55,635 bases of DNA from Chthonomonadaceae bacterium (GTDB taxonomy: Bacteria > Armatimonadota > Chthonomonadetes > Chthonomonadales > Chthonomonadaceae), in contig DAIDKH010000022.1 of assembly GCA_027450145.1 (NCBI GenBank), positions 1 to 55,635 on the forward strand, given 5' to 3'. The notes beneath the pieces were generated by a model. It did not search any database. It was not told the DNA's origin and saw only the letters and a program-made list of their open reading frames with translations. Position 1 is the stretch's first letter. Every line of letters begins with the position of its first letter. A program made the position numbers and the translations under genes. This document shows positions 17,024-41,534 of this stretch, one piece after another.

Positions 17024-18142
17024 ATGCCACGTTCCGCTTGGCGTATTATGGCAGCGCTTGCCGTATGCTCATTCGCCCTCGGCACAACTTTCCGTGCTTC
17101 TGCAGCAGGGCTAGACGTAAGGGCTAAGCTGCCGAGCTTTCTTTCCGGTGGCGACATCTCACTATTGGGTCTAGAAGAGCAGCATGGTCAAGTTTACAAA
17201 TTCCACGGTAAACCGATGCCTGCCCTTCAGATCTTTAAGCAGGCCGGCTGGAATTGTATGCGCCTGCGCTTATGGGTGCACCCAACTGGCAAATCTATCT
17301 TCGTCAATAATCTCGCGTATACCGAGGAATTGGGACGACGGATTAAGGCGGCTGGCTTCTACCTAGTACTCGACCTGCACTACTCGGATACTTGGGCTGA
17401 TCCTGGACATCAACTCGTACCTGCCGCCTGGCAAAACCTGGACCTAAAACAGCTCGCCCACAAGGTCTTCACCTACACTCGAAAAGTGATTGAGTCGATG
17501 AAGGCTGCAGGCGCCATGCCTGATATGGTTGCCGTAGGCAATGAAATCTCTCCCGGTATGATGTGGCCAGTTGGTCGCATTACTAAGGGCCCCGGTGGTT
17601 TCGCGAATCTCGCACAGCTTTTGAAAGCGGGGATTGCGGGAGTAAAAGCAGGCAGCGGCGTGGCCACGCCACCTCTTATCATGATACATTTGGACCGCGG
17701 TGGAGACTGGAATTATACGCGCTGGTTTTTCGATCGATGTGCCAAATACGGCGTTGATTACGACGTGATTGGGGAGAGCTACTACCCTATTTTTCAAGGG
17801 AATTTAGCGGCTCTTAAGAACACGCTCTTCCACGCCGCCCGTAAGTTTCACAAACCCATTGTAGTTGCAGAAACAGGTTATGCGTACAAGGATGATGGCA
17901 GGCAGCCCGTCGCTGGTGTTAGCTATCCTAAGACTCCGGCAGGGCAGGCCGAATTCCTTAGCGACCTCATATCCACTGTGAAAGCCACACCCGATAACCT
18001 TGGCCGAGGGATTATATATTGGGCCCCGGAGTGGATACCCATGAATGGCGTGGCGGGGTCCTGGCATGCGTTTACTCTGTTTGATGACAACGGCGAGGCA
18101 CTGCCTGGGCTCGAAGTGCTCGGCAAGGCTGCAAGCCCTTAG
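17024..18142 (+). CDS. Arabinogalactan endo-beta-1,4-galactanase, GH53
   Basis: A secreted enzyme cutting beta-1,4-galactan, for example pectin side chains, into galacto-oligosaccharides. The 372 residues begin with a signal peptide (to ~28). GH53 motifs are plain: FLSGGDISLLGLEEQHG, NCMRLRLWVHP, LVLDLHYSDTWADPGHQ, AVGNEISPGMMWP with acid/base E174, DVIGESYYPIF, and IVVAETGYAY with nucleophile E283. The ATG has GGGGAG seven bases upstream. It heads a four-gene operon with a lipoprotein and two permeases, the same logic as the Bacillus gan locus (galactanase plus galacto-oligosaccharide importer). A weak AT-rich stretch (~16935-16990) precedes it, but no confident promoter boxes were found. 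Confidence 0.94.
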   Translation: MPRSAWRIMAALAVCSFALGTTFRASAAGLDVRAKLPSFLSGGDISLLGLEEQHGQVYKFHGKPMPALQIFKQAGWNCMRLRLWVHPTGKSIFVNNLAYTEELGRRIKAAGFYLVLDLHYSDTWADPGHQLVPAAWQNLDLKQLAHKVFTYTRKVIESMKAAGAMPDMVAVGNEISPGMMWPVGRITKGPGGFANLAQLLKAGIAGVKAGSGVATPPLIMIHLDRGGDWNYTRWFFDRCAKYGVDYDVIGESYYPIFQGNLAALKNTLFHAARKFHKPIVVAETGYAYKDDGRQPVAGVSYPKTPAGQAEFLSDLISTVKATPDNLGRGIIYWAPEWIPMNGVAGSWHAFTLFDDNGEALPGLEVLGKAASP

Positions 18143-18154
18143 ACCTACAAAAAG

Positions 18155-19540
18155 TTGACCATAGTGAATCAAAATAAAAATCAAATCCGTCGTGCCGCGT
18201 TTCTCACATTGGCGCTGGCTGGGGCTTGTCTGGCTGGCTGTCAAGGCAATCCCGCAGTGAATGCTCCGCCGTTAACAGCCCAGCAAGCAGCGCAACCTGT
18301 TAAGGGAAACATCACTGTGTGGAGTTGGAACATTGCTGCAAAGGCGCTTCAGGACATTGCTCCGTCATTCGAGCGCGCGCATCCAGGAACGCGTGTGAAC
18401 GTAGATCTTACTGGCGCTCAGATGCAGACGCGATTTATGTTATCACTGGCAGCGGACGTTGGCGCCCCGGATGTGTCTCAATTGCAGATCACCGATGCAC
18501 CACATTACATGGCCACAGGCAAATTAGCTGATCTCACAGCAGTAGCCGCCAAATATCAATCCGATTTTCCAGCAAGCCGCTGGGCAGAATGCGTAATGAA
18601 TGGCCATGTATATGCCATACCATGGGATCTTGGGCCCGTTGCTATTTTTTATAAGCGCAATATCTTCACCGAATACCACATCGATCCGTCTACCATTCAC
18701 ACATGGGCAGATTACATAGCCGCCGGTAAAAAGATTGTTGCCCTTTCACATGGCAAAACAAAGATGCTTGCGCTGGGCGTTTCGGGATTAGCAGACATGT
18801 TTGAGATATTCCTGCAACAGACCCACGGGCAAGTGTTTGATGATGCAGGGCGAATTGCCATCGATTCCCCTCAGGCCAGAAAGGCTTTGGAACTCATTCG
18901 GGAAATTCACAATGCCGGCATAACCCTTGATATTAATGCATACGGTCAGGAATGGATGGCAGGATTCAACGACTCTACCCTTGCAACGTACCCTGGGGCC
19001 GTGTGGCTGGGTGGTATTATCAAGGACTCACACTCGAAGTTTGAGGGTAACTCCACACGTTGGGGTGTTTTTCGGTTACCCGCGATAGAACGAGGTGGGG
19101 TACATGTAGCCAACCTGGGAGGATCGGTTCTGGTAATACCAAAGCAGTGCGCGAACAAGGCTGCTGCGTGGGCGTTTGTTAAATATGCCCTCTGCACCAA
19201 GCAAGGCCAGCTCATGCAGTATGAAAAGGAGAGCCTCTATCCGTCTTTTCTTCCTGCACTGAAGTCCAAAGTCATGGACAAGCCAGATCCGTTTTTTGGC
19301 GACCAACCAGTAGGAAGACTCTTTGCAAGGGATGTTCAGAAAATATGGCGCATTAACCGCACCGCCAACTGGGCCGAGGCCGAAAGTTATATCCAGCAGG
19401 ATCTTAGCCAATGGGCAGCTGCAGGCATGCCACACGATCATCTACTCAAAACGCTGGCCGTAAGCTTGCATCAGCGCCTGGATGTTCCCATGGCGCCGGC
19501 AAGTGAGCTTAGTCAAGCTGCACCCGAGGTGCAACAATGA
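18155..19540 (+). CDS. Sugar ABC transporter substrate-binding lipoprotein (GanS-like)
   Basis: Captures sugars outside the cytoplasmic membrane for the permease pair downstream. The 461 residues begin with a basic N-terminus, a hydrophobic stretch and a lipobox LAGC (Cys ~29), so the protein is lipid-anchored. The body is a family-1 extracellular solute-binding protein: ITVWSWNIAAKAL, FERAHPGTRVNV, VYAIPWDLGPVAIFYKRNIF, WADYIAAGKKI, and GSVLVIPKQCANKAAAWAFVKY. The start is TTG 18155 or GTG 18164; neither has a strong ribosome-binding site, but the gene follows GH53 by only 12 bases. Its last codon overlaps the next start (ATGA). Galacto-oligosaccharide binding is inferred from the neighbouring galactanase. 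Confidence 0.9.
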   Translation: MTIVNQNKNQIRRAAFLTLALAGACLAGCQGNPAVNAPPLTAQQAAQPVKGNITVWSWNIAAKALQDIAPSFERAHPGTRVNVDLTGAQMQTRFMLSLAADVGAPDVSQLQITDAPHYMATGKLADLTAVAAKYQSDFPASRWAECVMNGHVYAIPWDLGPVAIFYKRNIFTEYHIDPSTIHTWADYIAAGKKIVALSHGKTKMLALGVSGLADMFEIFLQQTHGQVFDDAGRIAIDSPQARKALELIREIHNAGITLDINAYGQEWMAGFNDSTLATYPGAVWLGGIIKDSHSKFEGNSTRWGVFRLPAIERGGVHVANLGGSVLVIPKQCANKAAAWAFVKYALCTKQGQLMQYEKESLYPSFLPALKSKVMDKPDPFFGDQPVGRLFARDVQKIWRINRTANWAEAESYIQQDLSQWAAAGMPHDHLLKTLAVSLHQRLDVPMAPASELSQAAPEVQQ

Positions 19541-20487
19541 ATACCAGCTCGATACCCGGCGGTAATCAGGCCGGCGGTTCCAGAATTAACTGGCAGGCAT
19601 TGTGGAAGTATAGGCACTTTTACCTTTTCGTATCACCGTTTTTCATCCTGTTCGCAATTTTCGGGCTCTACCCGCTTCTGTTTTCGCTCTTTCTAAGCTT
19701 CACCAAATGGGATGGGATAACTGCGATCCATTGGGCGGGGCTCTATAACTTCAGATTAATGTTACACGACGAGCTTCTCTGGCGGTCGTTGTGGAATACG
19801 CTGGTTATTGGCGTGCTGTACATTCCGCCCATGCTGATACTTGCGTTCTTATTCGCGCAGATACTCAACAGTCAGTGGTTAAAACTGAAGTCGCTTTACC
19901 GTGCCGCATTTTTCCTCCCCGCCGTGACGCCTATGGTGGTCATCGCGGTTGTGTTCTCTCTGATCTTCAGCTCTGAGCGCGGTGTACTAAATTACGTTCT
20001 TTTGATGCTCAATCACGTGTTGCCATTCTTTCATTTCAAACCAATTCACTGGCTAGACAGTGAGCAGTGGTCTAAAGTTTCAGTTGCTATACTGGTAGTA
20101 TGGCGATGGACAGGATACAACATGGTGTTGATGCTGGCTGGTCTGCAAGCCATACCAATAGACTACTATGAGGCTGCTCAACTCGACGGCGCAAATGCCT
20201 GGCAGAGTATGCGTCACGTTACGTGGCCGCTACTGCAGCCCGTTTTCAGGTTCTGTCTGCTATTGTCACTTCTAGGCACACTATACATGTTTGATGAAGT
20301 ATTTGTACTTACAAACGGAGGACCAGGCACTTCCTCTACCAACTTCGGCCTCTATCTGTTTAATCTTTCATTTACAGATTTTAAATTTGGGTATGCCTCC
20401 TGTGTAGCCTATAGTGTGGCAATTGTTGTGTTTGGTCTCTCCTTGGGAATCAACCGCCTTAACCGACGAAATTCGGAGGGTGCATAG
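19537..20487 (+). CDS. Sugar ABC transporter permease, MalF/GanP type
   Basis: One of two membrane subunits of the carbohydrate importer, 316 residues with six transmembrane helices starting at ~27. The cytoplasmic EAA loop that docks the ATPase is seen as YYEAAQLDGANAWQSMRHVTWPLLQP. The N-terminal YLFVSPFFILFAIFGLYPLLFSL and LTNGGPGTSS are typical of UgpA/MalF-family proteins. Its ATG overlaps the lipoprotein stop (ATGA), giving coupled translation. No ATP-binding subunit is encoded in the operon, so a shared MsmX/UgpC-like ATPase from elsewhere is expected. Confidence 0.93.
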   Translation: MNTSSIPGGNQAGGSRINWQALWKYRHFYLFVSPFFILFAIFGLYPLLFSLFLSFTKWDGITAIHWAGLYNFRLMLHDELLWRSLWNTLVIGVLYIPPMLILAFLFAQILNSQWLKLKSLYRAAFFLPAVTPMVVIAVVFSLIFSSERGVLNYVLLMLNHVLPFFHFKPIHWLDSEQWSKVSVAILVVWRWTGYNMVLMLAGLQAIPIDYYEAAQLDGANAWQSMRHVTWPLLQPVFRFCLLLSLLGTLYMFDEVFVLTNGGPGTSSTNFGLYLFNLSFTDFKFGYASCVAYSVAIVVFGLSLGINRLNRRNSEGA

Positions 20488-20490
20488 GCT

Positions 20491-21336
20491 ATGAACAAGG
20501 CGCAAAAACCGAACGTCATGGCACTACGCCTCGCAACTTATATCATGCTCACACTGCTCGCTGTGGTGTTTGTTTTTCCATTCTATTGGCTCTTTACGGC
20601 CTCCTTCAAGACACAAGCCCAGATATTTGTCACACCGCCCCACTGGATCCCCAGCCACCTTATGTGGTCAAACTACACGGACCTATTTCAGCAAACTAAC
20701 ATCCTGCGGGCGTTCTTTAATTCTGTTGTAACGTCCGCAGGAAGCGTGCTGCTCTCGCTATTCTTATGCTCATTGGGCGGGTTCGCGTTTGCGAAGTATC
20801 CGCTGGCTCCAGGAAATAATCGAATGTTCGCGTTTGTATTGGGAACGATGCTTATACCAGGAGCCGTTACACTTATTCCTACATTTGAGATACTCGTTCA
20901 TATCCACTGGATTAACACCTACTGGGCACTCATAGTGCCAGGTGCCGTGGGTGCGTTTGGCATCTTCTGGATGCGGCAGTACATGGGCGCTAACCTGCCA
21001 GATGATCTGCTGGCTGCGGCGCGTATTGACGGATGCAGCGAGTTCGGTATCTACTGGCGCATTGCGGTACCAATCGCACAACCTGCTCTTGCCGCGTTGG
21101 GCATTATGAACTTGATTGGAAGCTGGAACAACCTTATGTGGGCGTTCATCGTGCTTCGTACACCTTCTATGTATACGCTGCCACTAGTCATCTATTTGAT
21201 GCAGGGTGAGATGAGTACACCGTGGGGCATGTTAATGGCGGGAGGTGTTTTCACCGTGTTGCCTCTGGTGATTGCGTTCCTTCTGTTCCAAAAGCAGTTT
21301 GTTGCCGGTATAACGGCGGGTGCCGTAAAACAGTAA
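20491..21336 (+). CDS. Sugar ABC transporter permease, MalG/GanQ type
   Basis: The second membrane subunit of the importer, 281 residues with six transmembrane helices. It shows the MalG-family start (VFPFYWLFTASFKT), FNSVVTSAG, and the EAA loop AARIDGCSEFGIYWRIAVPIAQPALA, ending with KQFVAGITAGAVKQ, a tail typical of this subfamily. GGAGGG lies before the ATG, which follows the first permease by 3 bases. The operon ends here, converging 15 bases later with the hydrogenase-like cluster; no hairpin separates the two. Confidence 0.93.
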   Translation: MNKAQKPNVMALRLATYIMLTLLAVVFVFPFYWLFTASFKTQAQIFVTPPHWIPSHLMWSNYTDLFQQTNILRAFFNSVVTSAGSVLLSLFLCSLGGFAFAKYPLAPGNNRMFAFVLGTMLIPGAVTLIPTFEILVHIHWINTYWALIVPGAVGAFGIFWMRQYMGANLPDDLLAAARIDGCSEFGIYWRIAVPIAQPALAALGIMNLIGSWNNLMWAFIVLRTPSMYTLPLVIYLMQGEMSTPWGMLMAGGVFTVLPLVIAFLLFQKQFVAGITAGAVKQ

Positions 21337-21351
21337 ATTATGTTCTTTGGG

Positions 21352-22119
21352 TTACGTGTGTAAGGCAAGAGGGTGACCCATGGCAAGCAAAAGACCATGG
21401 AGTATCATCCACGGATGCGGTGGGTTCCCAGGAACCCACACGTCGGGTTGCAGCACGCTGCTTACACCGTTAGCGTTTGCATAGCCCCCGCAAAACATGC
21501 CGCCCGAAATCGCTTGAGCGCCAACTGCTATGATAACTCTGGGCTGTCCCATGGCATGCAGCGTTTGACATAGAGGCTCTTGCATAGCGAGTGGCGCCGG
21601 GCCAGCAACTAGCAGTACATCGGCGAACCGTGGAGATGCCGTGAAGTGAATACCGAACCGGCTTGCGTCGAAGATTGGATTCGTACACGCTGCCACTTCC
21701 AAATCGGTGGCGTTGTCTCCCGTAGAGACGTAGCGAACAACAACTGATTGTTTGAACGGGCTATGCGCTGCGTCTACATTTAGGGTAGGGCGACCAGCAC
21801 GAAGCACCAGATCTTCGCGCCTCTTGACAGCTGTGCGTGTACTGCGTGACGTGACGATGGTTTTGGTGGGGCACACGCGCATGCAGTGGCCGCAACCCAC
21901 ACATTTTCCTAGGTCTAGCGCAACCTCTGGCTTTTCGTCTGTAGGTAGTTCTATCGCCTTTGTTGGGCAACCATCTGCGCAAAGTGTACAACCTTCACCG
22001 TGCGTGCACGGCGCGGAAGTTATCGCAGGCAGTCCGCGATTGGCCGCAGATAGGTCTGGAAATATTTCATCAGCAGTGCAACGCGGCGATTTTAGGTAGT
22101 TTAATAGCGACGGCAGCAT
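21352..22119 (-). CDS. Ferredoxin-NuoB/HyfI fusion subunit of Ehr-type complex, proximal-cluster cysteines missing
   Basis: 255 residues. The N-terminal ~100 form a two-[4Fe-4S] ferredoxin domain: CTHGEGCTLCADGCP, with an atypical 5-residue first gap, and canonical CVGCGHCMRVCP. The rest aligns by eye with the small subunit of group-4 hydrogenases (HycG/HyfI, NuoB family): FDASRFGIHFTASPRFADVLLVAGP, VIIAVGAQAISGGMF, VPGNPP, ILHGLLLAMG. In functional relatives these positions read CxxC, GxC and GCPP. Here all four ligands of the proximal cluster are replaced (TGDNATDLE, GAQ, GNPP). HyfH and HyfI are normally separate genes; this is a fusion. ATG 22119 is chosen for its GGGGAG ribosome-binding site 16 nt after the large-subunit stop; an in-frame ATG at 22209 lies inside that gene. 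Last gene of the operon. Confidence 0.88.
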   Translation of the reverse strand: MLPSLLNYLKSPRCTADEIFPDLSAANRGLPAITSAPCTHGEGCTLCADGCPTKAIELPTDEKPEVALDLGKCVGCGHCMRVCPTKTIVTSRSTRTAVKRREDLVLRAGRPTLNVDAAHSPFKQSVVVRYVSTGDNATDLEVAACTNPIFDASRFGIHFTASPRFADVLLVAGPAPLAMQEPLCQTLHAMGQPRVIIAVGAQAISGGMFCGGYANANGVSSVLQPDVWVPGNPPHPWMILHGLLLAMGHPLALHT

Positions 22120-22135
22120 CACTCTCCCCTTCTGG

Positions 22136-23665
22136 TCATAGGTCGGTCCCACTGTACGATAGACCAAAGCTCTTGTTGCACAGGGGAAAATCGGAGAGAA
22201 GACGACCACGAACCGCTATAGATAGTGCAGTCCAGTTGTTGAAACTGGGGTCCTTGATCTTGTAGCGAGAAACGCGGCCGTGGCTGTCCGTCATCACAAG
22301 GTGAATAAGCTCCCCTCTCCACGCCTCAACTATGCCAACCCCCACAGAATTCGCAGGCAATGTTGCTGGCGATGAATCGGGCTCATGAGAACTGGTAATC
22401 CTAGACACCATATCTGCTGCGAGTTCCATCGCGACGATTGCCTCCTCTGCGCGCACTCGTGTTCTTGCGAATACGTCTCCTTCAAAGTAGGTTGGCGGCT
22501 GCCACTCTACCTGCTCGTACTCCGGTTGAGCTATCACCTTGCGCACGTCGTATGCAATGCCGCTTGCTCTCCCCGCCGGTCCTACGAGCCCAAAGTCACG
22601 CGCCAGTGATGTCTTAATGTCGCCCATTCCCTCCATGCGTTCAATCGCTGCACCGTTGTTGAGCAGGAGTGGCAGAATGGATCGCAACTGGCTGCTACAG
22701 GTCCTCAATCGACGAGTAGCCTCTATTAACAGGGGTTTGGCAGGCATATACTTATGGGCGAATGGAACTATCACGCTCGTCATAAACCGCGTGCCGGTAA
22801 GAAGTTCCGCAACACCAAGCACATCGCCTCGCAACGCAGAAAATGCCGTACCCCCCGCGCCGAACCCCAAATCAGTACAGATACCTACCAGATCGCCGAT
22901 GTGGCAGGCCGCACGCTCAATCTCTATGCAGGCATATCGCATTTTGCGCACATCGGGTGCTGCAGGAACGCTGCACAGGTTTTCCATTGCGAATGCGTGC
23001 GCAGTTGCATTGGCCGCTGCTGTATCACTGGAGGCTGCTTCTACCAGGTAGTTCATCATCCTCCAGTCGCAACGGGTAAGGCGTTCTTCCAAACCTCTGT
23101 GAACAAATCCCAACCTTATTTCCAGGTTTTCGATTACCTCACCTAGGCAGCTGAAGCGAAAGTGTCCGGGCTCAATAATGCCGGCATGAACAGGACCAAC
23201 TGGAACCTCGAAGACCCCATTGCCCTGAACTACCGTGAACCGGTAAGGAGCGCGACGCGAACGTTTACGCGCTGTCGCGGCTGTAACGTGTTCGGCAAGT
23301 GGGAACAGATCAGTCGGGTAGGAATCATGCATGACCAGGCTCTTCAGGCGTGGGTGACCTACTGGCCGAATTCCCCACAAATCTGCAATCTCTCGCTCGA
23401 ACCAGTGCGCTTGTGGAAGGTCTGGAGTGAGCGATGCGTAGGATACAGCATCGTGTGGAAGTGGTGAATTAAGGAGACTTACACCGCCGCTTTGGGTTTG
23501 TATAATGAGCGTAAGAAGCTGATGACCGTCTGCGCCGTCGGCAGCTGTAAGCAGTCCAAGTCGGTTACCATCCCCAATTTCCGATTTAAGACGGGCACGG
23601 AGCTGCATGATGGGAACTTCGTCCATTTTTAGTGCGCCTGTGAACACACCGGGCTGAGTATTCAT
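22136..23665 (-). CDS. HyfG/HycE-like large subunit of Ehr-type complex, Ni-Fe cysteines missing
   Basis: 509 residues combining a NuoC/30-kDa-like N-terminal domain (WFEREIADLWGI near 90) with a NuoD/HycE-like large-subunit domain (PVGPVHAGIIEPGHFRFSCLGE, RLGFVHRGLEERL, GDVLGVAELLTGTRF, MEGMGDIKTSLARDFGLVGPAGRASG). In hydrogenases the RxCGxC motif follows the EERLT helix; here that stretch is VEAASSDTAAANA with no cysteine. The C-terminal CxxC is also gone: the protein ends FPLCNKSFGLSYSGTDL. It therefore cannot hold a Ni-Fe centre. Such sequences are known as Ehr subunits. The ATG at 23665 overlaps the preceding TGA (ATGA), fixing the start; a longer frame to 23767 exists but lies inside the neighbour. 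Confidence 0.9.
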   Translation of the reverse strand: MNTQPGVFTGALKMDEVPIMQLRARLKSEIGDGNRLGLLTAADGADGHQLLTLIIQTQSGGVSLLNSPLPHDAVSYASLTPDLPQAHWFEREIADLWGIRPVGHPRLKSLVMHDSYPTDLFPLAEHVTAATARKRSRRAPYRFTVVQGNGVFEVPVGPVHAGIIEPGHFRFSCLGEVIENLEIRLGFVHRGLEERLTRCDWRMMNYLVEAASSDTAAANATAHAFAMENLCSVPAAPDVRKMRYACIEIERAACHIGDLVGICTDLGFGAGGTAFSALRGDVLGVAELLTGTRFMTSVIVPFAHKYMPAKPLLIEATRRLRTCSSQLRSILPLLLNNGAAIERMEGMGDIKTSLARDFGLVGPAGRASGIAYDVRKVIAQPEYEQVEWQPPTYFEGDVFARTRVRAEEAIVAMELAADMVSRITSSHEPDSSPATLPANSVGVGIVEAWRGELIHLVMTDSHGRVSRYKIKDPSFNNWTALSIAVRGRLLSDFPLCNKSFGLSYSGTDL

Positions 23666-25134
23666 GGCGTCAACCTCGAAAAGGCTCGAAGCACTGCAGA
23701 TGGGAGCAAAGTGCCTAGCCACAAAGCTAGTACCAGCAGCATTGCCGGTGCAGCGATACTCCGCCACGTATTTCCAAACTTTTGCGGCAATCGTTCCTTG
23801 CCGGGCGGCGGCTCACCAAACGCGACACCACAAGCGTGTACCACTAGCGCTACGAATGCACACGTGATGCCCACCAGCAATGCCCCTGCAGCGATAGGCT
23901 GGTGTTCTCTAATGCAGGCTGCCAGGATATGCCACTCTGATAAAAAGCTGCCGAAAGGCGGCGTTCCCGCAACTGCAGCAATACCGGCTAGCCAGAGCAG
24001 AGCGCGCGCGGGCGAAATAGTAATTAGCCCCCGAAGGCGCTCCAATAAATTTGTTCCGTAGATTTGATTGGCATCACCCGAGATCAGGAAGAGTGCAGTT
24101 TTTGCAAGACTGTGACAGACAGCCTGGAGGCAGAAACCGCCTACGGAACCAAGGCTTATAGCTGTCGCCATAATCCCCATGTTTTCCATACTGCTGTAGG
24201 CCAGCATGCGGCCGGAATTCCGTTGTCGTACGAGGAATAGTGCTGCAACACAGGTTGTCAGCACGCCCATAGGAAGCATTGTAAGCCGTACGAATTGTCC
24301 CTGTCCCGCAGCAAGCATGACATTGGTCACCCTTAAAAGGGCCAACATGGCACCGTTGCCCAGCGCTCCTGCAAGGATTGCCGCTCCTGGGGCAGGGCTC
24401 TGGTTGTATGCATCGGGTTGCCAAAACTGGAGTGGAAATAGACCGGCTTTGGTTCCGTATCCTAACAGTAAGAAGACAAAACCAAACCTTAACAGGGCAG
24501 GTGGCAAGTGGTTAGCGGTGCGAATTAGCAAGGCGCAAGACAGTGTTCCGTCTGGCGCAAGAGCGTGCTGAGAGGCAGCAAATATTAGCGCGGTGCCGAA
24601 GAAAGCGAACGCAATCCCTACACTGCAGATAATGAGGTATTTCCATGCAGCCTCCAATGACGCGCCAGACCTAGTGGAGTAAACAAGGGGAGCCGAGGCG
24701 AGTGTGGATGCCTCTACCGCGATCCACAGGTATCCAAGATTGTCTGCAATTGCTATGCCGTAGATACATAGCAATACTGCCAGCGTACAGAAATAGAATT
24801 CTCTAAGCACCCGGTGGTTTTGGAGATTAATACCCTGTTGCTCGCGGGCGAAATAACCGGTAGTATGTTCTGTAACCGCCGCTGTAACGAATGTTGTGAG
24901 CAGTATGAAAAGTACTGCAGTGGGGTCAACTAAAACGCCAGGCCACGGTCGATCTGGTGCATGATTATGCCAGAGGTAGGGAGCGCTGAAGATTACTGAG
25001 ACAGCGCACTGTAACCACATCATCCTGGCAACTACGCGCGGTAATTTCGGTGCCGGCAGCATAAGCGCAGTGAACAGCCCAATTACCGGCACAGCACACA
25101 AACCGATGAATTCTAGCGTTTGATGGACGTTCAT
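23662..25134 (-). CDS. HyfF-like NuoM/N antiporter-type membrane subunit
   Basis: About 490 residues and ~14 transmembrane helices; one of two antiporter-like, proton-pumping modules of the complex. Motifs: LWIAVEASTLASAPLVYS with the conserved acidic residue of helix 5, GYGTKAGLFPLQFWQPDAYNQSPAPGAAILAG with the conserved Lys in helix 7 and the broken-helix Pro, SMENMGIMATAISLG, and AGTPPFGSFLSEWHIL. ATG 25134 gives the N-terminus expected for the family; a longer frame to 25179 has no better ribosome-binding site. It overlaps the large-subunit gene by ATGA. Confidence 0.88.
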   Translation of the reverse strand: MNVHQTLEFIGLCAVPVIGLFTALMLPAPKLPRVVARMMWLQCAVSVIFSAPYLWHNHAPDRPWPGVLVDPTAVLFILLTTFVTAAVTEHTTGYFAREQQGINLQNHRVLREFYFCTLAVLLCIYGIAIADNLGYLWIAVEASTLASAPLVYSTRSGASLEAAWKYLIICSVGIAFAFFGTALIFAASQHALAPDGTLSCALLIRTANHLPPALLRFGFVFLLLGYGTKAGLFPLQFWQPDAYNQSPAPGAAILAGALGNGAMLALLRVTNVMLAAGQGQFVRLTMLPMGVLTTCVAALFLVRQRNSGRMLAYSSMENMGIMATAISLGSVGGFCLQAVCHSLAKTALFLISGDANQIYGTNLLERLRGLITISPARALLWLAGIAAVAGTPPFGSFLSEWHILAACIREHQPIAAGALLVGITCAFVALVVHACGVAFGEPPPGKERLPQKFGNTWRSIAAPAMLLVLALWLGTLLPSAVLRAFSRLTP

Positions 25135-25198
25135 TCGGTGTCCCTGGCGCCTTCGGCACCTGAGCAACGCAAATTGCAATCTGGGTTGCTAATTGCCT

Positions 25199-25828
25199 TC
25201 ATCGCTTGTGATTACCTAATCGTAGTATGTCAATGTGTTCGAAGCTGTCGCTTATCTGAAAGACCAGCACGCCAGCAATCATCGTTCCTGCCATAATGTC
25301 CAACAGAACGCCCAACTCTACTAAAAGTGGTAGAGAGTGCGGAATAGTTACCGTGAAAAAGAACATGCCATTTTCTAGGACTAGAAAGCCAATTATTTGG
25401 CTCACTGCAAGTCGTCGCGAAACCATGAGGATCATGCCGGCAAGAATCACGCCGATAGACGGTAGTGCGGCAGGAGGTACGGATTGCTGGAATGGATGAA
25501 ATAGAAAGAGCCCGCCAACGGCAGCAGAAGCGAGTAAAAGCAGTAGCGGCGACGAAATAAAGGTTCCTAGGTCTTTTCGGCATCCTACGACCTGTGTAAG
25601 GTGCGAAAGGTATAAAGGGGCTGCAATACCCTTGAGCAGCAGAACCCCCACTCCTGCAATCGTAAGTGCAGGTTCATTGTGTGCGATACCTACAAGTGTA
25701 GCGAGAGCGCCAACAGCAATTGTCTGAACCGAGTAGAGTGTAAGCTTGGTGCTAATTGCAGTTACCCCCACCATCCATAAACTGGTAATGAGTAGCAGGT
25801 TACCCAGTAGCGAATCCAGCGAAGTCAC
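25199..25828 (-). CDS. HyfE-like membrane subunit (NuoK-related)
   Basis: A small, very hydrophobic protein of ~209 residues with about seven transmembrane segments, placed where hyfE sits in hydrogenase-4 operons, between the NuoH-like and second NuoN-like genes. Recognisable parts are LLKGIAAPLYLSHL and VLENGMFFFTVT, the latter matching the ENG(L/M) motif of HyfE/NuoK with its conserved Glu, then ELGVLLDIMAGTMIAGVLVFQI near the C-terminus. GTG 25828 follows the upstream stop with an AAAAGGA ribosome-binding site; ATG 25864 would overlap that gene by 28 bases and is less likely. Confidence 0.8.
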   Translation of the reverse strand: MTSLDSLLGNLLLITSLWMVGVTAISTKLTLYSVQTIAVGALATLVGIAHNEPALTIAGVGVLLLKGIAAPLYLSHLTQVVGCRKDLGTFISSPLLLLLASAAVGGLFLFHPFQQSVPPAALPSIGVILAGMILMVSRRLAVSQIIGFLVLENGMFFFTVTIPHSLPLLVELGVLLDIMAGTMIAGVLVFQISDSFEHIDILRLGNHKR

Positions 25829-25836
25829 GGCTTTGT

Positions 25837-26757
25837 TTATCCTTTTAGGGCGGCTAGCAGGCATGCTACTAATGAGAACGCCAGCCCAAACGCCAGCAGG
25901 TCAGGTAATTTGCGCCAGTGTAGACGCACAAGAACGGTATCGATAATGGCCGCCAAAACTACCAGGCAAAACATGATTGTAGTGGTCGCTGCCCAGCGAG
26001 TAATTGGTGTCTTAATCACGATCTCATTAATTAGCATCTGCGCGATCAGACCGTAGTAGACAGTGAGCTTGAGGCCAGCCTGATACTCCATAAGAGCGAG
26101 ACGAGGTCCACTGTACTCTAGTAGCTGAGCTTCATGGATCATCGTTAATTCAAGGTGTGTGACCGGGTCTTCAATCGGCATCCGGGCGGTTTCTGCTGCA
26201 GCACAAATCCAGATGGCAGCCACTGCGAGTGGCAGGACATAGGCAGAACCACCAGTCGAAACAGGAGTAGCGATAAGCGCGTTTAGCCAGGGACTCCCTT
26301 GATATATTGCAACTGCGCTCAGTGCAAGTACCAGCGTTGGTTCGACAAATATGGAGAGCGCGGATTCGCGGCTTGCTCCCATCCCTCCAAAGGCTGTGCT
26401 AGTATCCATAGCGGCTAAACCCGTCGCCATACGTGCGGCAGCTAACAGGAACACAAACAGGATAAGATCCGCACTAATTGGCGCGGGCAGGCCAGCCCAC
26501 GGCACAACTAATGCCACCAACCCATAGGCCGTTAGGCTCACAACAGGGGCATTCTTAAAAATAGGGCCAGTTTCGTCACTAAGAACTGTTTGTTTTCGTG
26601 CAAGCCTCAGGAAATCGTACAATGGCTGGACGACCCGGGGCCCTCGACGTTTTTGTAGACGGGAACGGCATGATCGCAGAATGCCAACAAGCAAGAACGG
26701 CATTATTATCGACTCGAGTACTGTAACCGCTAATCCTACAAGAGAGATTCTGCTCAC
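25837..26757 (-). CDS. HyfC/HycD-like NuoH-type membrane subunit
   Basis: 306 residues and eight transmembrane helices; the NuoH-family subunit linking the hydrophilic head to the pump modules. It has the family segments RGPRVVQPLYDFLRLARKQ, DLILFVFLLAAARMATGLAAMDTSTAFGGMGASRE, and EDPVTHLELTMIHEAQLLEYSGPRLALMEY, whose acidic residues face the subunit interface in the complex I and hydrogenase structures. It starts in an ATGA overlap with the HyfB-like gene, so expression is coupled. Confidence 0.92.
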   Translation of the reverse strand: MSRISLVGLAVTVLESIIMPFLLVGILRSCRSRLQKRRGPRVVQPLYDFLRLARKQTVLSDETGPIFKNAPVVSLTAYGLVALVVPWAGLPAPISADLILFVFLLAAARMATGLAAMDTSTAFGGMGASRESALSIFVEPTLVLALSAVAIYQGSPWLNALIATPVSTGGSAYVLPLAVAAIWICAAAETARMPIEDPVTHLELTMIHEAQLLEYSGPRLALMEYQAGLKLTVYYGLIAQMLINEIVIKTPITRWAATTTIMFCLVVLAAIIDTVLVRLHWRKLPDLLAFGLAFSLVACLLAALKG

Positions 26758-28712
26758 CGATAGTATCCTGCGGCCGCTAGCAATAGCAGGAGTGTAGCGA
26801 ACATGGTCACTAAATAGGCATGAATACTGCCGGCCTGAAGTTGCGCAATAAGATCTCCAATTCTTTGAATTACCCTTAACAGCGGTATGTAGACGCGGGA
26901 TTCCATGGTAGCGTCCGCATGTGTCTCAACCTCTATGTGGTCTGGAAATAGACGGGCGTTAGAACCATCAAACCGTACCTCAATGTCGTATCGGTAGATG
27001 GCGCCGAATAGCCGAGCAAGCGGTTGGGCGAAGCTCTCACCTGTGGTCTGCATTCGAGCGGAAATGCCACCACCACAAGCCCAGGCGGGCACAGATAGGA
27101 GCGGCATTCCCTTGTCTCTATAGGCGAGCCACATCGCCATAATGCCTCCGCCTGCAAACATGAGAATTACGAGTTGCCCCGTTGGAAGTGTCCAGAAGAG
27201 AGTCGGGTGTGCGGGACAGATTAACCCGGCGAGAAACCTGGTGATGACAGGAGCCAATAGCCCCGCAGCCACCGATAACACGGCAGGGATCGCTATACCA
27301 ACTCGCATCGTGGGCCCACATTCGCGTGCTCTTTCTGCTTTCAATGACCGCGCACGACCTAGGAATACGACGCCAATGAACCTTATGCATGTCGCCATAG
27401 AGAGTGCGCCAACAAGTGCCAGCCACCCTAAAAGCAGTAGAGCTCCCATGCGAAGCGAGGGCTGATGAGAGGCAAGCGCAAGCTGAAGACACCCGTGCAA
27501 CAGCAGCCACTCGGTTGCGAACCCTGCCAGCGGGGGTAAAGCACAGAACGAGGCGCCTGCGGTTAATGTGCATAACATTGTGTGGGGCATACGCCTGCCT
27601 AGCCCGCCAAGTTTATCAATATCATGGCAATCCGCGGTTATGTCCACTGCTCCCGCAGCAAGAAACAGTGTAGATTTGAATAGTGCGTGGCTCAACACAC
27701 CAAATAGGGCAGCGATCTCCAAGCTCATCCCAATTTGGGCTAATCCCATTTGCGTCGCTATCAAGCTTACACCAATTGCACACGTAATTACGCCTACATT
27801 TTCCACTGTGCTGTATGCAAGGAGACGTTTTAAATCGCGTTGAAGAAACGTGAAAATCACGCCCCAAAAGGCGGTGATAAGCCCGAATATTACCAGCACG
27901 TAAGAGGCTACTGGACTTTGAATTGCATGGTCTACAAGAAAAATCCTGATGAGAGTGTAAATCGCTGTTTTCACCATGACCCCGCTCATCAATGCGGATA
28001 CAGGAGCTGGTGCGGCTGGGTGTGCGGCAGGCAACCACAGATGAAACGGCCAACATCCTGCTTTGACCACTAGTCCAATAACGAGTAAAATTGCTGGCCA
28101 CATTGCGAGCGATCCTGTGACGTGCCATGCGGTAAAGTCCCATGAATGGGTAATGGCATGGAGCCAAAAAAAGGATCCCGCAACGAAGAGTGTGCTTATT
28201 CGCGTCGCTGCTAGGTAGATGAGGCCCGTGGTGCGCGTGGTGCGCTCCTTGTGATTCGTAAACACCAGCATTGCGGAACTAACGGCCATGGCTTCCCAAC
28301 AGACGACAAATGTTATCGCGTTGGCGGCGGTAATTACGCCACACATCGCGGCCACAAGTATAACAAGAGAGACCCAGAATATGCGGGCGTTAGCTTCGTG
28401 CCTTAAGTGCCGCATGTAGGAGGGAGCGTAAAGGGCTACAGCGATGGTGCATATAGCAACTACGCCCAGAAACCATCCGCACAACCAGTCAAATCTAAAC
28501 GCTGGACCAATTCCAGCCAGGCAGAACTGGGTGTGGACGGTAACTAAGAATGATCGATTGATCGCAGCTCCAGCAACGAGCATAATCCCTATACTGCTGG
28601 TAATGAGCAATGCTGCGGAAGTGCTGTCGCCTTTGTTTTGTGGTGCGAGTATCGGAACCAGCCCGGCTAAGACCCACGTGCAAATTATAAAAATTAAGAT
28701 TTCAAGGTGCAT
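26754..28712 (-). CDS. HyfB/NuoL-like antiporter-type membrane subunit
   Basis: 652 residues with ~15 transmembrane helices; the larger ion-pumping module. Conserved channel features are present: VVCWEAMAVSSAM with the helix-5 Glu, VVKAGCWPFHLWLPAAHPAAPAPVSALMSG with the helix-7 Lys, YSTVENVGVITCAIGVSL, and FKSTLFLAAGAVD with a further Lys. The C-terminal ~100 residues (~550-652) form the extra soluble/helical extension seen in HycC/HyfB proteins. A GCGGAG ribosome-binding site precedes the ATG, 15 bases after the ArsR-type gene, placing the regulator and complex in one transcript. Confidence 0.93.
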   Translation of the reverse strand: MHLEILIFIICTWVLAGLVPILAPQNKGDSTSAALLITSSIGIMLVAGAAINRSFLVTVHTQFCLAGIGPAFRFDWLCGWFLGVVAICTIAVALYAPSYMRHLRHEANARIFWVSLVILVAAMCGVITAANAITFVVCWEAMAVSSAMLVFTNHKERTTRTTGLIYLAATRISTLFVAGSFFWLHAITHSWDFTAWHVTGSLAMWPAILLVIGLVVKAGCWPFHLWLPAAHPAAPAPVSALMSGVMVKTAIYTLIRIFLVDHAIQSPVASYVLVIFGLITAFWGVIFTFLQRDLKRLLAYSTVENVGVITCAIGVSLIATQMGLAQIGMSLEIAALFGVLSHALFKSTLFLAAGAVDITADCHDIDKLGGLGRRMPHTMLCTLTAGASFCALPPLAGFATEWLLLHGCLQLALASHQPSLRMGALLLLGWLALVGALSMATCIRFIGVVFLGRARSLKAERARECGPTMRVGIAIPAVLSVAAGLLAPVITRFLAGLICPAHPTLFWTLPTGQLVILMFAGGGIMAMWLAYRDKGMPLLSVPAWACGGGISARMQTTGESFAQPLARLFGAIYRYDIEVRFDGSNARLFPDHIEVETHADATMESRVYIPLLRVIQRIGDLIAQLQAGSIHAYLVTMFATLLLLLAAAGYYR

Positions 28713-28727
28713 CGCCGAACTCCGCCT

Positions 28728-29084
28728 CTATGAGTCCGTTTTAGGGGCACTACCGGTTGACTGTTGATTGATTTCAGCCAGCATTTCAACTGACTCGTTC
28801 AACTCCTCCATGAAGTAGAGCCGCATTAGAGACAACACATCTACAAGTCGGTGGTTCTTTAATGAGTAAAAGACTTGATTGCCTTCTTTGCGATTAACGA
28901 CAATATGACTGGCGCGCAAGACCGCCAAATGCTGTGACGCGTTGGCTTGCTCAACGGCTAGCCGCTCTAATATTGCTCCCGCAGACATTTCTCCTTCGCT
29001 CAGGATTTCGACAATTGCGATCCTTGTTGGATGTGACAGAGCTTGAAAAATAGCCGCCTTAAATTTTCGTAACTGTGATTGCAA
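28728..29084 (-). CDS. ArsR/SmtB-family transcription regulator without metal-binding cysteines
   Basis: 118 residues with a winged helix-turn-helix: ALSHPTRIAIVEILSEGEMSAGAILERL, then the recognition helix QANASQHLAVLRASHIV and the wing NRKEGNQVFYSLKN. The ELCVCDL-type alpha-3 cysteine motif is absent and the protein has no cysteine at all, so it senses no classical thiol-bound metal; other inputs such as redox partners or small molecules are possible. The start is TTG 29084 with AAGGGA seven bases upstream; no ATG fits. It is the first gene of the Ehr-type operon, and a perfect inverted repeat lies just upstream, suggesting auto-repression of the whole cluster. Confidence 0.9.
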   Translation of the reverse strand: MQSQLRKFKAAIFQALSHPTRIAIVEILSEGEMSAGAILERLAVEQANASQHLAVLRASHIVVNRKEGNQVFYSLKNHRLVDVLSLMRLYFMEELNESVEMLAEINQQSTGSAPKTDS

Positions 29085-29137
29085 ATCACAATCCCTTCAT
29101 GAATTTAGTAAAACATTCGTATTTTACGTATTATAGC

Positions 29138-29157
29138 ATATTCGTTATTTCGAATAT
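29138..29157. promoter_or_regulatory. Inverted repeat, likely ArsR operator
   Basis: ATATTCG-6-CGAATAT is a perfect 7-base inverted repeat 54 bases upstream of the regulator's start codon, in an AT-rich promoter-like stretch. ArsR/SmtB proteins typically bind such AT-rich imperfect 12-2-12-like or short inverted repeats that overlap the promoter. A second partial copy of the arm (CATTCG) lies at 29114-29119. Confidence 0.6.
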
Positions 29158-29403: not shown

Positions 29404-30810
29404 TCATTGGTGGTCGACGACGAGACTGCTATTGTAGGTCTTACGCATTTGGCTTGTTGTTGCCTTCTCGCTGGTGCCATTCCAGGATACAAAATAGTCC
29501 CAGTACTCTCCAAAGCTGTGCATAAGCGTGATGTCTGGTACACCGCCGATTTCCGTGATAGCGAGTAGTTTGCGGCCATCAAAGAGAGTTTGCATCTTTT
29601 GGTATAGACCGGTCAGAGGATCGCTTTGGCTAGCCGGATAGGCGTCTACACCTACGATATCGACGTATTTGTCACCAGGATACCATGCCATGTTTCCTCC
29701 GCTAGTGTAGACCCAAATAAGGTTGTGAAGATGGTCGATCTTGGTGTAGCGATTATACATTAGCTTCCACAGTTTTTTAAAAGCTTCGGGGCCGTGGGCG
29801 CCCCACCAGAACCATCCACCCTCTGCTTCATGTAGCGGTCTCCACAAAACAGGTATTCCGGCGGTCTGCAGCTTTTTTAACTGGATTGCAATGGCGTCAA
29901 GGTTAGAAATAAGAGTCCTATATTCCGGTGATTTCGGGTGAGCTAGTGCGTCAGCAAGATTGTAGGTTGTGGCATATGTATAGAATCCGCTCCACCAGGG
30001 TGCGTGAATGAGTTTACCCGCGCTGTTTTTGTAGGTTCCGTTGATGAGATGCATGGGTGCATTCCAATGCCAAGAAATGGTGAGGATGTAGCCGTTACGG
30101 GCAGTTGCGATCATTCGCTGCACGGTACCGGCGGGATTCGCATGGTGAGCAATTCGGGACGGCGAATAATCCATAAAGTCCTCGCCCCTTATAAATGGAA
30201 GCCTGCCAGTTTGCGAATGGATGAACGCGGCATCTTTTCCGGAATAGCACCCACTAGCGGTTTGTTTGCCGTAAATAATCCACAGCTTCTTGAACAGCAT
30301 ACGAGCCGCGGCGTCAGCGTTAGGGTCGCTTAGTTTTAGAGGAGGCTTGTGCGGTGACGGAAAGGGCTTTACTGGAACAAGCCTCACGGAGTTGACATTG
30401 TAATATCCCCATCCACCACCGATGGAAATTATGTTGTTTCCGTTGATTAGGCGTACAATACCGGCTCGGTGCATTGCCCAGCTATTGCCTGTGGCAGGGA
30501 ATGTACCGCTGAATGTCAACTGGTTCACCTTTAGGTTGTAGCCTTTGGGGCCGGCAGGTGAACTGTAGCGAATTTCAGGCCGGTACAAACCAGCCTGAGC
30601 ATCAAATCGAAAGGTAACATTGTCGGCTGCAGTGATGAAACCGGTTGCATAACCTTGTCCGGTGTAGCCCGGTATGGAGCGTGCAATCGTGGTGCCTTGC
30701 AACTCCGCTCTACCTATTGGTAAATTGATCGCTCCGGATTCGGCAATGGAAATTGAAGGGACGAGCAGCAAAACTGCAGCCGCTAAGCCCGTGAATAGTC
30801 GTGGAACCAT
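29404..30810 (-). CDS. Secreted beta-mannanase, CBM35-like domain plus GH26
   Basis: Hydrolyses internal beta-1,4-mannosidic links of mannans outside the cell. The 468 residues comprise a signal peptide (to ~23), a CBM35-like beta-sandwich (~35-147: RAELQGT, GQGYATGF, YNLKVN, GGWGYYNVNSVRLVP) and a GH26 barrel (~170-460). Catalytic features are ISWHWNAP, WRPLHEAEGGWFWWG with acid/base E328, LIWVYTSGG, VDIVGVDAYPA, and AITEIGGVPD with nucleophile E420. AAAGG precedes the ATG. It stands alone with ~300-370 bases of non-coding sequence on each side, so it is probably regulated independently. Confidence 0.95.
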   Translation of the reverse strand: MVPRLFTGLAAAVLLLVPSISIAESGAINLPIGRAELQGTTIARSIPGYTGQGYATGFITAADNVTFRFDAQAGLYRPEIRYSSPAGPKGYNLKVNQLTFSGTFPATGNSWAMHRAGIVRLINGNNIISIGGGWGYYNVNSVRLVPVKPFPSPHKPPLKLSDPNADAAARMLFKKLWIIYGKQTASGCYSGKDAAFIHSQTGRLPFIRGEDFMDYSPSRIAHHANPAGTVQRMIATARNGYILTISWHWNAPMHLINGTYKNSAGKLIHAPWWSGFYTYATTYNLADALAHPKSPEYRTLISNLDAIAIQLKKLQTAGIPVLWRPLHEAEGGWFWWGAHGPEAFKKLWKLMYNRYTKIDHLHNLIWVYTSGGNMAWYPGDKYVDIVGVDAYPASQSDPLTGLYQKMQTLFDGRKLLAITEIGGVPDITLMHSFGEYWDYFVSWNGTSEKATTSQMRKTYNSSLVVDHQ

Positions 30811-32730: not shown

Positions 32731-33528
32731 CTACTCGCCTTCGTGACTATCCTGCGATGTTGTACTGTTTTCGTAAATACCATCCATCGCGGGCCGCATG
32801 GAGATCATACCAAACCCATCTGTACGCCGCTGTCCTAATCCGCACTCCCACGCCGTCAGCAATAATTCTATTTCGCCATAGAGCACAAAAGGTGCGTAGC
32901 AGCCGATGATGTCCTCCCCGAGAAACCGAACTTTCCGTGTTCCCTCACGAGGGTCCTTTCGAATGTATTTCTGATTGAATTCAATGTGCACCGGTTTACC
33001 CCGCAGTTCCGCACCACTCACCCGCCTGTGTGTGAGAAGCAGCTCGTTCACTAGTACGCGTTCTATTTCCTCGCCGTGATGAAGTGGTCGCAAATACCGT
33101 ACCATTTGCGGTGTCGGCTGTGCAATCGCCGGTGTGACAATGGGTGTAACACATGTGCAATCCATTCGACCACCTCTAAAATCCGGCGTACTGATTTGTC
33201 GTATTGCAGCAATGCGTAGCGGGTGACCGCATAAAGTAATTGTCTGCTGCTTCGTCGCAAAATCATGTAGTTTCTGGATAAGCGGCTGGCTTGGCGAGGC
33301 GAACTGCCATTCAATGCGCCCTGGTGCAAAGTGGATGTGGCCATCGCTGATACGGCGTGACTGGCTTCGTAGGTTGCTGAAATGGTAGTCCCCACCAGGC
33401 ATCAGGCCGTCAGCTGCGGTTGACGGTGTTCCATCAATAATTGCGCGAACCAACTGCTGCAAGTGTTCCTGGTGGTCAATCGGTATCGATAATTCGTTGT
33501 CGGTTACAAAGCTCAAAAGAATGCGCAT
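32731..33528 (-). CDS. cas6: Orphan Cas6-like CRISPR RNA endoribonuclease
   Basis: 265 residues with the hallmarks of Cas6, which cuts CRISPR repeat RNA: N-terminal MRILLSFVTDNELSIPIDHQEHLQQLVRAII (ferredoxin-like strand and helix), DYHFSNLRSQSR near 47-58 with a candidate catalytic His49, a middle region rich in short strands, and the C-terminal glycine-rich loop CGLGQRRTDGFG at ~229-240 followed by a hydrophobic strand. No other cas gene and no repeat-spacer array is visible in the window. AGGAA precedes the ATG. It may serve an array elsewhere or be a remnant. RAMP-fold Cas5 is less likely because of the GxGxxxxxGFG spacing. Confidence 0.78.
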   Translation of the reverse strand: MRILLSFVTDNELSIPIDHQEHLQQLVRAIIDGTPSTAADGLMPGGDYHFSNLRSQSRRISDGHIHFAPGRIEWQFASPSQPLIQKLHDFATKQQTITLCGHPLRIAAIRQISTPDFRGGRMDCTCVTPIVTPAIAQPTPQMVRYLRPLHHGEEIERVLVNELLLTHRRVSGAELRGKPVHIEFNQKYIRKDPREGTRKVRFLGEDIIGCYAPFVLYGEIELLLTAWECGLGQRRTDGFGMISMRPAMDGIYENSTTSQDSHEGE

Positions 33529-33742
33529 GTTATAGAATTCCTAACTAGCAAATGAATTTAGGCGCCAAAAACGGGCTGGCTTCAACTTAGATAATCTCGT
33601 TGAATAGGCCAGTTTGCCGGTACAAGCGGCAGAATTTTCTCAAACTCGCGTGGAGCGGCTTCCAACGGGTACTCGGCGGTCGGTACCATGCGGTACCATA
33701 ACGATAAATAACTGGGCGTTTAACGTGCAAGGAGTAACACAG

Positions 33743-41132: not shown

Positions 41133-41534
41133 ACTCGAGGTCTCCCTATGGGCACCGCACCCTGTCACATTGGCCTGATCTATACTTACGATGCCTCTAT
41201 TATTATTTTTGTTCAAAATACCGGAATAATTACCTGTATTTAGGGTTTTTTGCTGTACAAATGACTTGGATTTAACGCGTTAACGTCATCTTTAACCTCG
41301 CGTGCTTAAGGATCAGCGTGTAATCTGAGCAGGGGGCAGTTGTCTGCCATTGAAGTCCGCCGAACGCACCTAGCCATGCGAGGCATTCTTGTGATTTAAC
41401 GAGAATACCTGCGATTATAATTTAATTCTGGGGATTACAACAACCATATTGCGGCGACTGCGGGTATAAACATTCGGTCACTACCAAAACATTAACGTTA
41501 CTGTTAAATGTTGTGCCACAGGAGGTTTGTTGTC
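41133..41534. other. Intergenic region with two palindromes before GH2
   Basis: 402 bases without a clear gene. Two symmetrical elements stand out: TTAACGCGTTAA, a perfect 12-base palindrome at 41272-41283, and TAACGTTA at 41493-41500 within ACATTAAC-6-GTTAAATGT. Both resemble LacI-family-type operators and lie upstream of the secreted GH2 gene. No regulator gene of that family is in the window. Confidence 0.45.

Follow-up and report, generated by a model that had tools for sequence, protein, structure and literature searches.

The Ech-hydrogenase-related (Ehr) complexes, which are said to go back to the work of Coppi (2005) and Marreiros (2013), are spread over many phyla and turn up in an operon related to a tuberculosis dormancy operon. 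Ehr complexes lacking the Ni-Fe ligands are well known (PMC6349859, PMC10284858, PMC4378227, PMC7304191, PMC10432482; also PMC7894505). How complex I couples the chemistry of its head to distant pumping in the membrane is debated, and a natural Ehr complex that has every pump part but lacks both the Ni-Fe site and the N2 cluster separates the coupling machinery from electron delivery, making N2-less Ehr a natural test of how complex I-like pumps can be powered. One such complex is encoded in the window considered here, which is the whole 55,635-nt stretch of contig DAIDKH010000022.1 of a Chthonomonadaceae bacterium and to which base positions refer unless another replicon or contig is named. 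Its minus-strand operon (21352-28712) comprises six overlapping or almost touching genes, HyfB-HyfC-HyfE-HyfF-HyfG-HyfH/I, whose head has lost the ligands of both metal sites and whose membrane subunits keep their pump residues; as read from these sequences, electron flow is probably not what drives the pump. The content, order and orientation of the six genes are as given by an earlier first-pass annotation of this DNA, although the ArsR gene at the head of the operon was missed there.

26754..28712, minus strand: HyfB, NuoL-type antiporter-like subunit, key Glu/Lys retained
25837..26757, minus strand: HyfC, NuoH-like subunit, acidic loop of Ehr type
25199..25864, minus strand: HyfE, NuoK-like membrane subunit; K78, E164 and E183 retained
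23662..25179, minus strand: HyfF, NuoN/M-type antiporter-like subunit, key Glu/Lys retained; start probably residue 16
22136..23767, minus strand: HyfG/EhrL, NuoC+NuoD fusion with a hydrogenase large-subunit fold and no Ni-Fe ligands; true start probably residue 35 (position 23665)
21352..22209, minus strand: HyfH-HyfI (ferredoxin + NuoB) fusion, EhrS; true start probably residue 31
28728..29084, minus strand: ArsR/SmtB-family regulator without cysteines, directly upstream of HyfB and belonging with the operon

Replacement of the Ni-Fe ligands in HyfG

Alignment of HyfG to E. coli HycE (7z0s) indicates that CGIC and DPCxxC, the two ligand motifs of HycE/HyfG, are both absent, which bears out the first-pass annotation in its report of a missing Ni-Fe site.

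23021..23032, minus strand: former first Ni-Fe motif (CGIC), now S-S-D-T by alignment; its Asp, D214, is invariant in 45/45 Ehr
22139..22177, minus strand: former second Ni-Fe motif (DPCxxC), now NKSFGLSYSGTDL by alignment, at the C-terminal end of the protein

The C-terminal DPCYSC of HycE aligns with FGLSYSG in HyfG, which presumably ends at about the position where processed HycE would end. The motifs are replaced alike in all aligned Ehr, mostly by (A/S)-(G/S)-D-(T/S) at the first site together with NKSFxLSYxGxDL at the C-terminal end, and D214, N497, K498, S499, L502, S503, Y504, G506, D508 and L509 (numbered from Met35) are invariant in 45/45 aligned HyfG sequences; the invariant pocket residues are common also to 9/9 members lacking N2. 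This alignment comprises 45 sequences with a mean column identity of 45% and leaves outside it the distant Allomeiothermus copy L088, which deviates at the first Ni-Fe motif. The relatives were picked by short peptide patterns, of which KDPSFNNW lies some 20 residues upstream of the C-terminal motif and none covers the motif itself. By alignment, then, the Ni-Fe pocket is rebuilt with invariant Asp, Asn, Lys and Ser residues and not left to decay, so that the 'catalytically emptied' head of the first-pass annotation is correct as to the lost ligands but too strong for a pocket made of residues invariant across the Ehr examined. The HRGxE motif of HyfG is complete.

A pair of cysteines was considered as a replacement for the Ni-Fe ligands, namely C173 and C496, the latter present in >90% of Ehr, and was rejected since C496 is gone in several members that have C173. 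C173 itself (23147-23149), within EPGHFRFxC, is invariant in 45/45 aligned Ehr and does not occupy a Ni-Fe ligand position.

Loss of the N2 cluster from the NuoB part

In the NuoB part of the HyfH/I fusion each of the four cysteines that would ligate the N2/proximal [4Fe-4S] cluster has been replaced (DTQN versus CCCC).

21715..21717, minus strand: N2 ligand 1, now Asp165, with Asp also in all Armatimonadota-type relatives that lack N2 fully
21706..21708, minus strand: N2 ligand 2, now Thr168
21514..21516, minus strand: N2 ligand 3, now Gln232
21424..21426, minus strand: N2 ligand 4, now Asn262, with PGCPP changed to PGNPP

The second missing metal site of the first-pass annotation is thereby confirmed, with 0/4 cysteines by alignment, but its treatment of the double loss as ordinary for Ehr does not hold: most Ehr examined keep all four N2 cysteines, and in the first relatives' alignment CCCC is retained in 70/79 NuoB-type sequences besides references, a count that is approximate by one as the CCCC rows include a reference, HyfI of E. 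coli. Among 291 genomes of the same phylum, 12 carry an Ehr-grade HyfG (E value below 1e-100), and the NuoB part is readable in 11 Armatimonadota Ehr, of which nine have lost N2, two have 3/4 ligands and none is intact. The nearest relatives of the window are likewise without all or almost all of the ligands, reading DTQN (L004, L005), DTAS (L006), DCSD (L008), DSSH (L009, L122), DAGD (L012, L014), DAAG (L013), DSSD (L126) and DASD (L127); ligands are partly kept in L128 and L129 (CTCC) and in L019 (CCDC). In the nine that lost N2 the first position is always Asp and a single Cys is left in one, while positions 2-4 vary across the N2-less set (T/S/A/C, Q/A/S/G and N/S/D/H/G respectively), two members having His as the fourth residue. 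Readable N2 motifs are kept in the Ehr of the phylum of the Melainabacteria-type relatives.

Substitution of the missing cysteines by nearby equivalents, which the first-pass annotation had named among the results that would overturn its reading, was looked for and not found: across the N2-less set the NuoB part has no further fixed Cys, and HyfG has no paired replacement. Apart from D165 and P212, the NuoB part of this set presents no conserved pocket that is new. By alignment, N2 loss is rare within Ehr, being characteristic of the Armatimonadota members and shared by a single plasmid copy from Allomeiothermus. No earlier description of an N2-less Ehr was found in the open literature searched, outside which lies the defining paper, Marreiros 2013. 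The plasmid copy (L088, on pMESIL01 of Allomeiothermus silvanus) reads TDES; its N2 loss looks independent, it has the second ferredoxin cluster alone left, and the large-subunit match occurs once more on pMESIL01, at 20229-21491.

The first-pass annotation, in giving both metal sites of the head as missing, is right for Ni-Fe and N2 but overlooks the two intact [4Fe-4S] clusters of the ferredoxin half, for which 8/8 cysteines are present in the window and in all nine aligned N2-less members.

21967..22008, minus strand: first Cys motif of the ferredoxin half (C68, C74, C77, C81), intact by alignment
21871..21903, minus strand: second Cys motif of the ferredoxin half (C103, C106, C109, C113), intact by alignment

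Elsewhere in Ehr the gap lies at other places. In Omnitrophota Ehr (L022, L026, L028 and others) N2 is kept and the ferredoxin-half cysteines are lost; in the Omnitrophota-type copies L022, L024-L026, L028, L037, L044 and L053 the ferredoxin half is still fused, with most or all of its cluster cysteines gone and the N2 cysteines kept. Copies from Rhodococcus, Rhizobium and Cupriavidus keep N2 and have the ferredoxin motif nowhere in the fetched locus, and several other Ehr keep the second ferredoxin cluster alone. N2-only complexes might still be served by an external electron donor encoded elsewhere.

Family membership and origin of the N2 loss

The six-subunit HyfB/C/E/F/G/I-type operon and the large subunit without either CxxC Ni-Fe motif are those expected of Ehr; N2/proximal ligands in the small subunit, which are typical of Ehr and not definitional, are missing here. 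The CGxC and DPCxxC of group-4 [NiFe] hydrogenases are absent, and complex I and Fpo are likewise not matched, given the absence of N2, the Asp/Thr at the motif aligned to the NuoD quinone-site Tyr/His and an operon with no NuoEFG. Since residues that do not vary in 45/45 Ehr stand in place of the Ni-Fe motifs, the complex is, on sequence grounds, a genuine member of the known Ehr family. A phylogeny, one of the checks proposed in the first-pass annotation, agrees: HyfG falls inside Ehr and outside E. coli HycE, HyfG and NuoCD in a tree that has these three as its only outgroups, without Mbh, Mbx, Ech or Fpo. AlphaFold models of HyfG and HyfH/I (pLDDT 83 and 87) give fold matches of HyfG to HycE of the E. 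coli formate hydrogenlyase (FHL; TM score 0.88) and of the NuoB part to HycG. Alignments, tree and fold matches thus concur with the earlier assignment to Ehr and with its reading of the pump modules as intact.

A concatenated tree of the five subunits other than the NuoB-bearing one splits the N2-less rows in two, with one group sister to the CTCC pair and the other sister to the CCCC Melainabacteria. A single origin of the loss was tested by forcing 13 rows together (12 N2-less and L130, whose NuoB part falls off its contig), and this one-clade constraint is rejected under the model used (approximately unbiased test, AU p=0.0009). N2 loss therefore looks recurrent, to judge from this tree, with the same first substitution to Asp; lateral transfer may also have played a part in the history of N2-less Ehr, tree models having their limits. 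When the window is compared with relatives from its own genus, non-synonymous divergence (dN) is 0.1-0.3 against saturated third codon positions, a pattern by which the operon genes are under purifying selection. Sequencing error or a pseudogene was considered and rejected: genomes assembled independently show the same changes, which are beyond chance, and selection on the genes is purifying. No relatives were found among viral contigs.

Membrane subunits and the ArsR regulator

The antiporter-like subunits keep their channel Glu/Lys residues, as the first-pass annotation had stated and as an Mrp-type antiporter would have them: E140/K217/K248/K346/E401 in HyfB and E141/K165/K229/H341/E400 in HyfF, where the lysine position of transmembrane helix 8 is Asn, as it is in E. 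coli HyfF. The acidic loop that was said to be kept in the NuoH-like HyfC is mostly so, with E139, E203, E214 and R130 present, but some acids of the loop differ (D213 to E196, E216 to V199 and E218 to H201), the last two changes being typical of Ehr. The pump residues of HyfB, HyfF, HyfC and HyfE agree with those of other Ehr.

The ArsR protein is cysteine-free and has M. tuberculosis Rv0081 (6jmi; E value 3.7e-15), itself linked to an Ehr-like operon, as its closest solved structure. Its gene is co-located with the Ehr operon in L004, L005, L006, L013, L122, L128 and L129 and is divergent in several Melainabacteria. A putative operator precedes it.

29138..29157, minus strand: putative ArsR operator, inverted repeat ATATTCG-N6-CGAATAT with perfect 7-bp arms

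The repeat lies 2 bp upstream of a TATAAT -10 element (29130-29135), which was assigned by eye; for this promoter a sigma-70 scan gave no consensus pair. An identical or similar repeat stands before ArsR in L004 (perfect), L005, L006 and L122. Within the 4.14-Mb genome the operator occurs as a single copy even with 1 mismatch allowed, control matches numbering 0, and a regulon search with it gave this one site. These observations fit a dedicated local autoregulator: bound to the operator at the promoter of its own gene, the ArsR protein would act as a repressor of the operon. In M. tuberculosis, Rv0081 controls the hyc-like genes next to it, rv0082-rv0087 (PMC6901956), and is described as a hypoxia hub (PMC8044303).

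Genomic context

The genome (4.14 Mb, 168 contigs) has two NuoD-type loci, the Ehr operon and an ordinary complex I. No redox partner genes (formate dehydrogenase, NuoEF) were found in the conserved flanks of the operon. The neighbours in the window are polysaccharide-degradation genes, namely GH53, a sugar ABC transporter, GH26+CBM35, GH5 and GH2 (17024-21336, 29404-30810, 33614-34900, 41508-44348), and synteny of the sugar-ABC transporter/GH53 block with the operon is confined to the same genus. A Cas6-like protein (PF01881) is encoded at 32731-33528, between a PhyH-family gene and a GH5 gene.

On contig C46 of the same genome (L141, L131) there is a hydrogenase large subunit in which both RxCGxC and DPCxxC are intact, belonging to a genuine [NiFe] hydrogenase cluster whose neighbours are apparent Hox-type electron-transfer subunits, a 1205-residue pyruvate:ferredoxin oxidoreductase and HypD. 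HypD as a sign of Ni-Fe in the Ehr complex is uninformative, since this Hox-like hydrogenase with intact motifs sits on another contig. Contig C92 (L142:2680-6999) encodes DabA (PF10070, E value 2.5e-258) adjoining a NuoL-like DabB, a DAB-type inorganic-carbon system.

Powering of the complex

Given that N2 is gone along with the Ni-Fe site, the head would have no path left for electrons to the former Ni-Fe/quinone site, and reduction there is very unlikely because complex I without N2 assembles and has no quinone reductase activity (PMC8042128). Of the power sources that the first-pass annotation had left open, quinone, if reduced at the old site, is for this reason strongly disfavoured, and the same argument disposes of ferredoxin as electron donor there, though the ferredoxin domain is intact. 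Electron-driven pumping by the head of the window complex is very unlikely. Since no conserved redox partner is found and DAB2 provides a precedent, in which a NuoL-like subunit is coupled to a non-redox head and 'functions independently of electron transfer' (PMC13144422), it is suggested, with little more than even confidence, that the complex is a non-redox ion translocator, either Mrp-like or coupled to the proton-motive force (PMF).

In such a translocator H+ would pass by way of HyfB, HyfF and the HyfC/HyfE region, perhaps in exchange for Na+, and no electrons would run through the head; the complex would work like an Mrp antiporter capped by a head that has no redox function. The HyfC coupling loop may be gated or driven from the conserved D214/N497/K498/S503 pocket when this is protonated or binds a ligand, with D214 and K498 as candidate gating residues. 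Asp165 probably supplies the negative charge of the lost cluster beside Arg190 of HRGxE, in a putative D165-R190 pair; in complex I the Arg of this motif lies 3.7 A from N2 (PMC8042128). The intact ferredoxin half may be a structural or redox-sensing module.

Several points weigh against non-redox translocation. Such a pump needs another energy source, and only the PMF or an ion gradient is at hand; no ligand of the pocket has been identified; and to our knowledge transport, expression or structure has been described for no N2-less Ehr. Structure prediction, also proposed in the first-pass annotation, returned a hydrogenase-type fold, but the HyfG model is of low confidence at residues 153-173 and at the C-terminus, where the pocket lies, and pocket geometry is therefore unproven and cannot be argued from the models. 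That both ferredoxin clusters have been kept points to some surviving electron role. Finally, a Geobacter Ehr rises in formate-grown cells (PMC7894505) and redox roles for Ehr have been suspected by other authors (PMC6349859), in both cases for complexes that may or may not have kept N2.

The chief rival is a rewired redox pump, in which the ferredoxin clusters take electrons and an unknown acceptor nearer the ferredoxin half, or exchange with soluble partners, drives pumping. It would explain why the ferredoxin cysteines are complete in every aligned N2-less member, and the cell, having a pyruvate:ferredoxin oxidoreductase, presumably holds reduced ferredoxin. Nevertheless, rewiring is unlikely for three reasons: first, no partner gene is conserved in the flanks; second, the NuoB part offers no new conserved pocket beyond D165 and P212; and third, the operons of several Ehr lineages encode no ferredoxin cluster. 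A second possibility, by the logic of DabA, is that the antiporter modules run inward and the PMF drives a vectorial, non-redox reaction in the head, with the Asp/Asn/Lys/Ser pocket binding CO2/bicarbonate or another anion. The DAB2 precedent (PMC13144422) and the invariance of the pocket across Ehr would accommodate this; however, neither a zinc site nor a carbonic-anhydrase fold was found in the head, there is no evidence of a substrate and a DabA-DabB system is already present in the same genome, which makes such catalysis improbable. The N2 site could instead hold a different cofactor, or a cluster ligated by Asp, His or Asn, leaving the wire intact. Both Asp and His can ligate Fe-S clusters, Asp165 is fixed and two members have His at the fourth position, but the variation at positions 2-4 leaves no conserved ligand set and renders this very improbable. 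That drift is stripping the cofactors from a once functional Ehr, as the sparse, patchy occurrence of the operon in the phylum (12/291 genomes) and the free variation at ligand positions 2-4 would allow, is scarcely credible in view of intact frames, dN of 0.1-0.3 with saturated third positions, a first ligand that is always Asp, invariant ferredoxin cysteines and pump residues, and a conserved operator.

A wider and more doubtful possibility is that Ehr in general are not electron-transfer machines: once Ni-Fe was lost, the pocket would have been turned into a coupling site worked by protons or a ligand and not by redox chemistry, and what is left of the Fe-S wire would be dispensable. To judge from ligand patterns alone, what appears constant across Ehr is the pocket and the pump, not a continuous wire from ferredoxin through N2 to the pocket. 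If the wire is dispensable, lineages would have broken it at different places, at N2 in Armatimonadota and Allomeiothermus and at the ferredoxin clusters in Omnitrophota, rhizobia, Cupriavidus and Rhodococcus. Should the complex move ions, redox chemistry at the old site would be unnecessary for this architecture; should it move none, it may be a gate or sensor, and either result would constrain Ehr function everywhere.

Comparison with known systems

The E. coli formate hydrogenlyases (Hyc, Hyf; 7z0s) share with the window complex their subunit set and folds, but CGIC, DPCxxC and the proximal cluster are present in them and none is present in the window. Mrp antiporters have no NuoD/NuoB-type head. 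Antiporter-like subunits are common to Mrp, DAB2 (DabA-DabB) and the window complex, and those of DAB2 work without electron transfer, whereas DabA, unlike the head described here, is a carbonic-anhydrase-like protein (PMC13144422). In the Rhodococcus plasmid Ehr the gene order is NuoB-HyfB-C-E-F-G. The rv0082-rv0087 operon is likewise taken to have a NuoB-like gene first and no fused ferredoxin, unlike the window, an order and annotation drawn from the literature. Of rv0081-rv0087, described as 'formate hydrogenlyase-like' (PMC6901956, PMC8044303), Rv0081 is the closest solved relative of the window ArsR protein and regulates the hyc-like operon beside it. The closest likeness is to the known Ehr complexes, with the same six genes (EhrABCDLS), the same absence of Ni-Fe ligands, the same replacement motifs and the same retained pump residues; the difference is that most Ehr examined have four N2-type cysteines, all of which the clade of the window has replaced.

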